Below are positions 21,892-64,000 of a stretch of DNA of 64,000 bases, piece after piece (the first letter of the stretch is position 1; each line of letters begins with the position of its first letter). The DNA lies in assembly GCA_019638775.1 (NCBI GenBank), contig JAHBTD010000001.1, positions 1,178,001-1,242,000 on the forward strand, read 5' to 3'. The position numbers and the translations under genes were made by a program. This DNA comes from Fimbriimonadaceae bacterium. GTDB lineage: Bacteria; Armatimonadota; Fimbriimonadia; Fimbriimonadales; Fimbriimonadaceae. Under the pieces are notes generated by a model, which saw only the letters and a list, made by a program, of their open reading frames with translations, did no database searches and was not told the DNA's origin.

Positions 21892-23010
21892 ATGATGAAA
21901 ATCAAAACCGTCGGCATTTTGGCCTTGGCGCTGCCGCTATTGATAGCGGCAACGCCCCAAAAGAAGCCGACAAGTGAACAACTCAAGCAGGAGTTTACGA
22001 AGCTCCAGCAAGAATTCTACAAAGCGCAAGAGGAGTACTACGCTCCCTACCAAAAGGCGGCCAAAGATGGCAAGCCCCCGCCTAAGCTCGACAAATCGAA
22101 GGACCCAGCCTTGCTGTTCCTCGCAAGGTTTAAGAGCTTTGCCAAGAGAGCCGAAGGCGATTTGAAAGCCGGGCCGCTCGCCGAAGGGATGGTCATCCAA
22201 GTTGCCGGCGATAGGGACAAGAAGGCTACCGAGGAATCCATCGGCAAGCTGCTCGGGATGTATATCACATCACCTGATCTGGCACAGCAGCTCTATCCGA
22301 TCTGTATGGGCTACGACATGATGCTGGGGTGGAACACGGAGGAATCGAACAAGGCAACGACGAAGGCGTTGATGACGATCGAAACCAAATCGCCCCACAA
22401 AGAGGTGCGGGTAGCCGCTCTCTATCAAAGGGGAGTACTACTAAGCTCGCCGTACGAAACGGAGAAGCCAGACATCGCCGCCGCCAAACGGGTTTTTAAC
22501 CGTGTGATCGAACAGTACGGAGATACCCAGTACGCCGAGCGCGCCAAAGGCGCTCTGTTCGAGATGGACAATCTCTCGATCGGCAAAGTGGCTCCCGACT
22601 TCGAACTCGAAGACGAGAATGGTGTCAAGTGGAAGCTCTCCGACTACCGAGGCAAAGTGGTGGTCTTGGACTTCTGGGGGTTCTGGTGAGGTCCCTGTAG
22701 AGCGATGTTGCCGCACGAGAAAGAGATGGTGGAGCGTCTGAAAGACAAACCTTTTGCTCTCCTCGGGCTCAACAGCGATGGCGACCGTGCAGTCGTCAAT
22801 AAAATCTTAAAGGAACAGGGAATCACATGGAGACAGGGCATCCTTGGTTCGACCAATGGTGACCTTCCCCGAAAGTGGAACGTTCGTGGCTGGCCCACGA
22901 TCTACATCATCGATCACAAGGGCGTCATCCGCTTCAAAGACCTTCGGGATGAGCAGATGGAAGACGCCGTCAATAAACTCCTCAAAGAGATGGAGTCCGG
23001 CAAGTCATAG
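21892..23010 (+). CDS. Thioredoxin-fold (TlpA-like) selenoprotein, UGPC active site
   Basis: One continuous frame of 372 codons interrupted only by TGA at 22687-22689. Upstream it encodes a signal peptide (IKTVGILALALPLLIAATPQ), a helical, Lys/Glu-rich domain of about 210 residues, and the start of a redoxin domain (SIGKVAPDFELEDENGVKWK, GKVVVLDFWGFW). Downstream the fold continues without shift: GPCRAMLPHEKEMVE, then the cis-Pro loop VRGWPTIYIIDHKGVI. TGA (codon 266) replaces the first Cys of the usual WCGPC motif, so selenocysteine is inferred, giving U-G-P-C. GGAGGT precedes the ATG. No strong SECIS hairpin is visible; a GCG/CGC stem at 22702-22714 is weak. The likely role is an extracytoplasmic disulfide or peroxide redox enzyme. 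Confidence 0.85.
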
Positions 23011-60502: not shown

Positions 60503-63256
60503 CTACCCCGTACTCTGCATCGCCGCCGCTAGCCCTGCAATCGTCTGCAGCACCGCCTCACGCCAAACTCCATCCTGCTCATCCTCCGGCAGATCAGCCC
60601 AGCGGTCCATCAAAGCCACCTGCATTCGGTTTAATGGCAACACCATCGGATTCCGAAACTCCACCGTTGCCCTCACCGTTTTCGCACTATCCAGCAGCTC
60701 CTGCGAACCCGAAAGCTCCAAGATAGATTCCACGCTCCGTCCATATTCGGCCTCAATATCCCCTTGCATCCGTGTGCCAAGAGCCACCGGCTGCACCCGT
60801 GCCGAATACATTCGCGACGTTGGTAGATGCGCCCGTACAAGCTCAAGCTGAGCGTTGTCCATGACTGTGCGGAAGAACGGCCACCGGCTGTGCATGTCCG
60901 CCAACAGCGGCTTATTGGCATACCCCTGCAAGCCCGTGCCCATCCCATACCAGCCGACCAACACGTGTCGACTCTGCACCCAAGCAAAGTTCCACGGGAT
61001 CGCCCGAAGCTGGGACATCCCGCCAAGCATCTTGCCCGGACGGAAAACGGGACGAGACGCAATGGTCAGGAGTGAAATGAACTCAATCGGCGTGGCCTGA
61101 GAGTAGAAGCTCCAAAAATCCGAATCGTCGTAAACCATCTTTCGATAGGCGTCTCGGGCATCGGCAGAGATCGTTCGCATCGCCTCATGAAACTCGGGCG
61201 GATCAGAAACCGCATCTCGCGCCGAAGCGATGATCACCGCGTTGACAATCTGCTCCAGATGTCTATGCGCAATGGGCCGTAACGCGTATCGGAACGAGAT
61301 CACTTCACCCTGCTCGGTAAAGCGCACCTGCCCTTGGAACGACCCTGGTGGCTGAGAAAGGATGGCCCGGTTCGCGCGGCCCCCTCCTCGCCCAACTGTT
61401 CCGCCGCGCCCATGAAAGAGCCGTAGTTTGATCCCAGCCTCGCTGCTCGCCTTTGCAAGTTCGCTTTGCGCCGAGTACAACGCCCAGTTCGCGGCGAGGT
61501 AGCCACCGTCTTTGCTGGAGTCGGAATAGCCGAGCATGACTTCCTGACAGCCGCCCCGAGAGCTCAAATGCGAACGATAGATCGGTTGCGCGTAAAGCTC
61601 AGCCATCAGCGCCCCTCCCCGCTCAAGATCGCCGACCGTCTCAAAAAGCGGTACCGAATCGATCTCACTGCGCAGGCTCCCATCGGGCTGAACATGGACC
61701 AGACCTGCCTCCTTTGCCAGAAGCAGAACCTCAAGAATGTCGCTGATCCCGTGCGTCATTGAGATGACATAAGCTTGGATGCTGTCCTTTGAGAGTAGGC
61801 GCTTCGCCCGCTTGATCACGTCGAACACATCCAGTACGTTCCGAACCCTATCATCTGTCGTGAAATCGGCAGGAACCAGCGGCCTCGGGTTCGCAAGCTC
61901 CTGCGTTAGAAGCGCCACTCGGTCCGCTTCGCTGAGTTCGGAATAAGCGGGTGTCACCCCCGCCGCAGCCAGCAACGCCGAAACCGCGCGCTCATGCTCT
62001 TCCGAGTGCTGTCGAATATCCAGCGTGGCCAGATGGAACCCATAAACCTCGACGCGTCGAAGCAACAGCGGCAACTCGCCAAACTCGGCGGCAAGCTCGC
62101 CCTGGTTCTCGCGGAAGCTCTCCATCATCAGTCGAAGGTCGTCGGCAAAGGCTTCGGCGCTGCTGTATCCGATAAGGCTCTCGTGTGGGTGCCCCTTTCG
62201 AAGCTCTTCAAGGTCGGTGTGCATCGACCGTAGTCGCGCCAACATCGTGTGGATTTTCAGCACATACCGCTCTTGTGCGTATCGCTCTTGAATCCAAGTC
62301 GAAACTTTCGTTTCTTGAATGTCTGCGGCAAGAACTTGCTCAAATCGCTCACTCACCGGGACTAGCCGACTGCTGTTTGTGAGTTGCATCCGAAGTCGGT
62401 CGAGGGCGTTGATGTGGTTTTCAAGGATCGCTTGACGGTGATCTAGCAAGGTCTGCCAAGTGACTTCTGGCGTGACCTTGGGGTTACCATCGCGGTCCCC
62501 GCCGACCCACGACCGATAGGCAATCAGGTTCGGAATTGTCCAGTCTTTTTCGGGATAGTGCTTGCGGAGGGCGCGGGCAAGGTCGTCATACAGCCACGGC
62601 ACAACTTCAAAAATCGTCCGCTCAAAGAAGTAAAGCGCGTTCCGAACCTCCTCACGAACCGTGAGCGAGGTGGTGCGCATCTCGTCGGTCTGCCATAGCT
62701 GGGTGAGAGCCAGCCGAATCCTGTCGGTGTGTCTCCCCGTCGCGTCCAGCGGGTCTTTGAGGTTACAGCCCTCCCCCGCATCCTCCTCGGCAAGCTCCAG
62801 CGCCACCCGCAAAATCTTGTCGAGAACGGCCCTGCGTCGAGCCTCGGTCGGGTGAGCGGTTAGAGTCGGGCAAATCCAAATCTCTTGCAAGAGCGTTTCG
62901 ACTTCCTCGGCGGTTTTGCCCTGCTGCTTGAGCCACCCAATCGCCTCCGAGATCGACTCGTTGCGGCCCTCCGCGCGGCGAACCCGGTTGATGCGCACAA
63001 TCTCCTTCTGTTCGGCGACGTTGATGAGCTGAAAAACGACCGTGTAGGCCCGGGCCAAACGCAAAATCCGCTCCGGTGCTTCCGGGAGAGGTGCGCTTGG
63101 GTCAGCTACCAACTGCCTTGCCTGAGCCACAAACTCAGGCCCTTCCTGATCCTCCAAGACAGCGCCCAATGCCGCGTCGAGAATCTCAATATCCCGCGAC
63201 AAAGATTCCGACAGCCCATACTGCCGCGCATTCAAACCAAGAAAGGGTCCAGACAT
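60503..63256 (-). CDS. ppc: Phosphoenolpyruvate carboxylase
   Basis: A 917-residue enzyme that carboxylates PEP with bicarbonate to oxaloacetate, replenishing the TCA cycle. Motifs: catalytic His in PTLTAHPTEARRR (about residue 134), GGDRDGNPKV, GYSDSSKDGGYLAANW, LFHGRGGTVGRGGG and the arginine of FRYALRPIAHRHLEQ. Length is normal and the C-terminal regulatory-type ending TIAGLAAAMQSTG is present. The ATG at 63256 is preceded by a TAAGCT-N6 leaderless promoter. It is divergent from the truncated selenoprotein gene (80-base gap), so the two promoters share that space. Confidence 0.97.
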   Translation of the reverse strand: MSGPFLGLNARQYGLSESLSRDIEILDAALGAVLEDQEGPEFVAQARQLVADPSAPLPEAPERILRLARAYTVVFQLINVAEQKEIVRINRVRRAEGRNESISEAIGWLKQQGKTAEEVETLLQEIWICPTLTAHPTEARRRAVLDKILRVALELAEEDAGEGCNLKDPLDATGRHTDRIRLALTQLWQTDEMRTTSLTVREEVRNALYFFERTIFEVVPWLYDDLARALRKHYPEKDWTIPNLIAYRSWVGGDRDGNPKVTPEVTWQTLLDHRQAILENHINALDRLRMQLTNSSRLVPVSERFEQVLAADIQETKVSTWIQERYAQERYVLKIHTMLARLRSMHTDLEELRKGHPHESLIGYSSAEAFADDLRLMMESFRENQGELAAEFGELPLLLRRVEVYGFHLATLDIRQHSEEHERAVSALLAAAGVTPAYSELSEADRVALLTQELANPRPLVPADFTTDDRVRNVLDVFDVIKRAKRLLSKDSIQAYVISMTHGISDILEVLLLAKEAGLVHVQPDGSLRSEIDSVPLFETVGDLERGGALMAELYAQPIYRSHLSSRGGCQEVMLGYSDSSKDGGYLAANWALYSAQSELAKASSEAGIKLRLFHGRGGTVGRGGGRANRAILSQPPGSFQGQVRFTEQGEVISFRYALRPIAHRHLEQIVNAVIIASARDAVSDPPEFHEAMRTISADARDAYRKMVYDDSDFWSFYSQATPIEFISLLTIASRPVFRPGKMLGGMSQLRAIPWNFAWVQSRHVLVGWYGMGTGLQGYANKPLLADMHSRWPFFRTVMDNAQLELVRAHLPTSRMYSARVQPVALGTRMQGDIEAEYGRSVESILELSGSQELLDSAKTVRATVEFRNPMVLPLNRMQVALMDRWADLPEDEQDGVWREAVLQTIAGLAAAMQSTG

Positions 63257-63268: not shown

Positions 63269-63324
63269 CTATCTTGGTCGAAGCGTCGGCATGGCGGATT
63301 GATTCTCAGAAAATGAGGTTGCTG

Positions 63325-63336: not shown

Positions 63337-64000
63337 ATGCTTGCCGCCCTTTTCATGACCGTTCTCGCGCAGACCCCGGCGAAGATCGAGGTCGGGAAGC
63401 CGATCCCCGACGTTGCCATCCAGGACATGAACGGCAAGACCGTTCGCCTCTCCCAGTTCCGAGGGAAAAAGCTGATCCTCTTCAATTGGGCCTCGTGGTG
63501 AGGCTGCCGAGAGCAGCTGCCCGGGTGGCAGGCCTTCGTAGAATTGAACAAGAACCGCGACTTCGTTTTCGCTGCCGTGGCGATGGACGTTGGCGGAATC
63601 CCCGCAGCCAAACCCCATTACGACAAGGCAAAAGCAACCTATCTGACGCTGGTCGATTCGCAGAACGCCCTCGCGGATGCCTTCGGTTTCCAGCTCATCC
63701 CCAACGGGTTCCTCATCGATGAAGCCGGAGTTCTGCGCTATCAAAAGGTCGGTGGGTTTGAAGTGCGAAGCCCAGCCACTCAAAAAGAGATCGACGCTTT
63801 CTTGGCCCTTCCATCCGTAAAGAGCGATGGAACCGGTGTTGAGCCAGTTGATGATCGCGCGATTGAGAGTGATCTGCGCGACGCACTATCGCAAACTCCC
63901 AATGACGGTCACGCCAATCTTGAGCTTGGTCGATTCCTGCACCGGCAAGGCAAGTCCCGCGAAGCGCTGCTCTACCTCCGCAGAGCAGCTACCGAGATGC
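63337..64000 (+). CDS. Redoxin-domain selenoprotein, U-G-C active site, cut by window end
   Basis: One frame runs from 63337 to the end of the window apart from TGA at 63499-63501. Before it: a short signal-like segment (MLAALFMTVLAQ) and a redoxin start (KIEVGKPIPDVAIQDMNGKT, KKLILFNWASW). After it: GCREQLPGWQAFVELN, AFGFQLIPNGFLIDEAGVL (cis-Pro loop) and a helical, possibly TPR-like segment (NLELGRFLHRQGKSREALLY) up to the edge. TGA falls where the first active-site Cys is expected, giving Sec55-Gly-Cys57. A hairpin with the geometry of a bacterial SECIS follows the UGA. The likely role is a secreted redox enzyme; the C-terminus is outside the window. Confidence 0.83.
63517..63531 (+). promoter_or_regulatory. 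Candidate bacterial SECIS hairpin
   Basis: ctgcc (63517-63521) pairs with ggcag (63527-63531) around cgggt, starting 15 bases after the UGA and with G as the second loop base, within the known spacing range of bacterial SECIS elements. An alternative, larger stem (ggctgcc with ggcaggcc, one bulge) uses the same right arm. Confidence 0.55.

Follow-up and report, generated by a model that had tools for sequence, protein, structure and literature searches.

The window, i.e. the whole stretch of 64,000 nucleotides that was analysed, contains at its end a plus-strand gene which begins with the ATG at 63337 and, when read through an in-frame TGA at 63499-63501, ends with the TAG at 64240-64242. The deduced protein has 301 residues with a predicted selenocysteine (Sec, U) at position 55, and this TGA is the only one in the 63337-64242 frame. 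An alternative in-frame ATG is located at 63313, and the orthologues begin at a methionine equivalent to ATG 63337, which supports the chosen start. The gene overruns the window by 242 nt and was followed on an extension of the contig (L002, corresponding to G000:C1:1238001-1252000, where window position equals L002 position + 60000) to its stop codon at L002:4240-4242. A large minus-strand gene (60503-63256) is oriented divergently from it. From the N- to the C-terminus the protein comprises a hydrophobic N-terminus, a redoxin/AhpC-TSA domain (residues 19-144), tetratricopeptide-type (TPR) repeats (residues 180-258) and a conserved C-terminal block. The original prediction, made from the window alone, had suggested a larger fusion with a TPR-like part beyond the window, and the extended frame to 64242 with its Pfam TPR repeats bears this out. 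The features are as follows:

63337 to 64000, continuing to 64242 beyond the window, plus strand: predicted selenoprotein gene (frame reading, orthologue starts)
63391 to 63768, plus strand: redoxin/AhpC-TSA domain, residues 19-144 (Pfam, AlphaFold model, fold search)
63499 to 63501, plus strand: TGA, predicted U55 in WASW-U-G-C-R (TGA in 49 of 49 distinct relatives)
63505 to 63507, plus strand: codon of the putative resolving Cys57 (sequence reading)
63517 to 63531, plus strand: candidate SECIS-type hairpin CUGCC-CGGGU-GGCAG (all pairs intact in the 49 sequences, compensatory changes)
63874 to 64000 within the window, plus strand: onset of the TPR repeats, residues 180-258 (Pfam TPR_2/TPR_19, model helices)
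Running past the window to about 64206, plus strand: TPR and RKQIW...DWxWQREQ block, residues 262-290 (invariant alignment columns)

With respect to the in-frame TGA in the WASW-x-GC site of the redoxin, the same codon is present at the motif position in all 49 distinct relatives, which come from at least six phyla, and a Cys codon in none of them; these 49 represent every distinct locus with a readable motif, L133 and L146 having been left out as the motif pattern is absent from both (the sequence of L146 starts within the redoxin domain). A base-call error at the TGA, which the original prediction had named as a possible source of failure, is therefore contradicted by 49 distinct sequences. 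Among 200 relatives, seven are full-length orthologues with 41-60% identity, each having one internal TGA. If the TGA were an ordinary stop, the downstream frame would constitute either a separate gene for the C-terminal part of the redoxin and the TPR part or the remnant of a pseudogene, and ORF calling with Table 11 does break the gene into a frame that terminates at the TGA and a second one that starts from a TTG at L002:3544. However, such a stop would split the redoxin domain between the active-site Trp and the resolving Cys in every relative, and in every relative the redoxin homology continues beyond it. In addition, in eight Armatimonadota orthologues the frame is conserved on both sides of the TGA, with third codon positions varying most on either side and with no other stop. 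An ordinary stop at the TGA is highly improbable.

The same genome encodes selB (377 bits), selA (491 bits) and selD (358 bits), all above the curated cut-offs, as well as a tRNA-Sec that scores 70.8 bits with the covariance model, again over the cut-off, and is likewise identified by ARAGORN with the anticodon TCA. Amongst the carrier genomes from other phyla, 21 of 23 have selB above the cut-off, and in the Armatimonadota sample selB is present in 6 of 8 carriers (G000, G004, G030, G046, G098 and G179) as compared to 99 of 201 genomes; no selB above the cut-off was found in the Armatimonadota carriers G096 and G102, which are 88% and 73% complete, respectively, nor in two other carriers, G291 and G293. 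A decoding of the TGA as Trp, Gly or Cys by an altered genetic code or by suppression would leave the frame open just as well, but it is hard to reconcile with full-length selA, selB and selD and a tRNA-Sec in the genome, with the position of the codon at the attacking-Cys place of redoxins, with the other in-frame TGAs of this genome, which mark the redox sites WGFWUGPC, WAHWUGPC and that of SelD, and with the conservation of an RNA stem beyond the needs of the protein (see below), and has a very small probability.

These other TGAs comprise, first, the selD gene itself (G000:C3:202514-203419, L152, outside the window), where the codon lies in the context CAG-U-ASK, making SelD here a probable selenoprotein in its own right. 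Second, a redoxin at 22573-22950 of the window has a TGA at about 22687 in a WGFWUGPC motif of the UxxC type and is presumably the one that had been counted as the first of two such redoxins. An in-frame TGA is also present in a third redoxin (WAHWUGPC), which lies outside the window at G000:C1:696254-696583 (L026, L060). While the redoxin at about 22.6 kb shares with the present protein a Sec in the attacking position, its UxxC motif differs from UxC and no TPR part was seen after it, in agreement with the proposed assignment of the two to different subfamilies.

Downstream of the TGA, the original prediction had placed a hairpin at a bacterial SECIS spacing, and this arrangement was confirmed: 15 nt (GGCTGCCGAGAGCAG) separate the TGA from a 5-bp stem CTGCC/GGCAG, in which 63517-63521 pair with 63527-63531 around the loop CGGGT (63522-63526). 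The bacterial SECIS model requires a loop of 3-9 nt, an upper stem of 4-16 bp, a G at one of the first two nucleotides of the loop, a distance of 16-37 nt from UGA to loop, and a minimum free energy of at most -7.5 kcal/mol (PMC13188914). With a loop of 5 nt, a stem of 5 bp and 20 nt from UGA to loop the hairpin lies within the geometric limits, and a G occupies one of the first two loop positions here (CGGGU) and in 48 of 49 sequences overall. The exception is a SAR202 copy (L093:2971-3690), which has the sole loop without G (UAUAU) and also an extra in-frame TAA; this copy is possibly decaying, or its sequence is in error. Depending on where the ends are set, the free energy is borderline, with -7.4 kcal/mol in 21 nt or -9.0 kcal/mol in 28 nt against the limit of -7.5 kcal/mol, stretches of 42-71 nt fold no better than shuffled sequences (z 0.1 to 0.7), and longer stretches around the hairpin favour other folds. 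The search against Rfam gave a chance RsmW match alone, far under the gathering score. Since the free energy is thus unremarkable, the support for the hairpin is comparative.

All five base pairs were intact in the first 31 of 31 sequences and later in 49 of 49. As the stem arms sit on the codons for the conserved L-P-[GV]-W-Q, this conservation is partly owed to the protein; codon use alone, however, predicts only 17.3 of 49 intact stems, a figure that overstates the independence of these mutually related sequences but leaves the direction clear. The joint codon counts point the same way: CTG/CAG occurs 41 times, TTG/CAA four times, TTG/CAG three times and CTG/CGG once, and the absent combination CTG/CAA is the one that would disrupt the first pair. 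Paired synonymous changes from CTG..CAG to TTG..CAA are seen in two sets of sequences with different motif types, L093 on the one hand and L135-L137 on the other. Moreover, in the first 31 sequences the Gln of the stem is encoded by CAG in 30 of 31 cases, as opposed to CAA in 16 of 28 cases for the Gln five codons upstream (p 4e-6). Because the TGA is conserved, the decoding genes are present and the pairs of the hairpin are kept, the UGA at 63499-63501 is, as judged from these sequence comparisons, very probably read as selenocysteine and the gene a Sec-x-Cys selenoprotein.

The redoxin domain is recognised by Pfam as PF08534 (68 bits, 8.5e-19) and PF00578 (58 bits, 1.1e-15; redoxin/AhpC-TSA), and the AlphaFold model of the protein has a pLDDT of 93.8 and a pTM of 0.89. 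In the fold search, the rows of which were taken up by matches to the redoxin domain such that the C-terminal part was barely covered, ResA, DsbE, TlpA and CcmG align over about 140 residues with Z of about 16-19, ResA and DsbE being at the top. Alignment with the CxxC and UxxC redoxins of the same genome places Sec55 at the first and Cys57 at the second Cys position, the UxC motif corresponding to WCGPC minus one residue, and Pro122 is conserved in the cis-Pro position. The WASW ahead of the attacking residue and the fold are likewise shared with TlpA, ResA and CcmG/DsbE, whereas these have CxxC and the present protein has a Sec-x-Cys that is one residue shorter, plus the TPR/KQIW module. The motif itself, WASW-U-GCR with one residue between Sec and Cys, reads as originally predicted, and across the relatives this residue is G, A, S, R or V. 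In a 29-row alignment, the invariant positions of the redoxin part are W51, S53, W54, U55, C57, R58, L61, W64, Q65, D107 and P122.

The product is most likely a thiol-disulfide oxidoreductase or a reductant-dependent peroxidase, and of these two functions the former is the probable one. Action as a peroxiredoxin-type peroxidase would be in keeping with the Pfam AhpC-TSA/Redoxin domain, with Prx and Bcp structures that align with Z of about 16-18, and with the designation of UGC-containing members as 'Prx-like' in the literature (PMC2398784). It is nevertheless rather unlikely, as the active site WASW-U-x-C-R is that of ResA/TlpA and stands where the PxxxT/SxxC motif of peroxiredoxins would be expected, and as the best structural matches are ResA and DsbE.

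The TPR repeats are matched by Pfam TPR_2/TPR_19 and are helical in the AlphaFold model. They are followed by the C-terminal block, NFVIRKQIWMVEHPERFHPEIDWNWQREQLKKE in the window protein, with the consensus RKQIWxxEHPE[KR]FHPEIDWxWQREQ, in which K263, Q264, W266, P271, F274, D279, W282, Q283 and Q286 are invariant in the 29-row alignment. Stand-alone TPR/KQIW genes without a redoxin domain are present at L061:4881-5372 and L036:1381-1869 in G066 and G068, which belong to the family of the window genome and in which no UxC redoxin was found, and this suggests that the module may act alone.

In named genomes, an alignment-based scan revealed carrier loci in Armatimonadota, Chloroflexota/Dehalococcoidia/SAR202, Poribacteria, Planctomycetales, Verrucomicrobia and Nitrospinota, as well as in a bin labelled Akkermansia muciniphila; a scan with the single protein had yielded no matches, and the C-terminal pattern used biases the result towards proteins having that block. 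By profile search, 10 members were recovered from 291 Armatimonadota genomes; Chloroflexota contributed matches in 19 of the 400 genomes sampled, and the phylum to which the Verrucomicrobia carrier belongs in one of 388. A scan covering these three phyla in the same numbers of genomes found no Cys homologue that could have served for the alignment with W-C-x-C-R proteins suggested in the original prediction, and in Armatimonadota the lowest family member scores 238 bits, the ordinary redoxins following at 106 bits. A shared gene neighbourhood was found among close relatives only, and none hints at a substrate. Plasmid records gave 10 matches, none reaching 80% of the query, and the five listed are ordinary redoxins or TlpA proteins with about 46% query coverage.

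Some members deviate in architecture. Those from Poribacteria (L094-L096) and L107 from Armatimonadota have additional N-terminal sequence before the Sec redoxin, which in L094 matches Cu_amine_oxidN1 (copper amine oxidase N-terminal domain), and L076, L077 and L079 from Chloroflexota are extended at the C-terminus by CGPDGCP[VL]P, which contributes two further cysteines.

'UGC-containing' Prx-like selenoproteins have been described in the GOS survey with 46 sequences (PMC2398784) and are also covered in two reviews (PMC13188914, PMC9312934). With these Prx-like/TlpA selenoproteins of environmental bacteria the present protein has in common the AhpC-TSA/TlpA domain, the Sec-Gly-Cys motif and a hairpin of the bacterial SECIS type; the redoxin domain, the conserved in-frame TGA motif and the Sec decoding system of the host assign it to the UGC-type TlpA/Prx-like proteins, and it is a further, previously uncurated example of a known bacterial selenoprotein type. 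In its main text, the GOS study reports 855 Cys homologues for its UGC family and makes no reference to a TPR part (PMC2398784), whereas in the present group no Cys form was found and position x can be taken by G, A, S, R or V. The closest curated model is NCBIfam NF041054 (WAxxUGC_long; ResA-like WAxxUGC motif-containing protein), whose motif is present as WASWUGC and which aligns to the redoxin (84-196) and to the C-terminal part (276-333). However, it describes a longer type, of which about 80 N-terminal model positions are missing in the window protein. As the window protein (145.8 bits) and seven diverse relatives (132-181 bits) all score under the curated cut-off of 300, the window gene represents a sister group to NF041054 for which the libraries searched contain no dedicated curated model. 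Literature searches on WAxxUGC, Armatimonadetes selenoproteins and TPR-redoxin selenoproteins did not retrieve a description of the present architecture. It is conceivable, although this is put forward tentatively, that the family forms a separate, apparently Sec-only UxC subfamily fused to a TPR/KQIW docking module which none of the libraries searched describes as a unit.

According to the mechanism that we propose, SelA, SelB, SelD and tRNA-Sec of the cell would decode the UGA as Sec, with the hairpin 15 nt downstream acting as the SECIS recognised by SelB. Sec55 might then attack a disulfide or an oxidised substrate and be resolved by Cys57 with formation of a selenenylsulfide, from which a cellular reductant would regenerate the Sec55/Cys57 pair, while the TPR/KQIW module may dock a partner or substrate. 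The Armatimonadota forms might be exported given their hydrophobic N-terminus, a signal peptide having been judged by eye only.

As standard gene calling splits the protein at the TGA, and as searches for Cys/Sec pairs would tend to miss the family because no Cys partner was found, its members are likely to be misannotated. The C-terminal block offers a handle on the partner of the redoxin. The retention of Sec across several phyla makes this family well suited to studying which functions selenium, unlike sulfur, can perform, and if no Cys form exists, its chemistry may truly require selenium.
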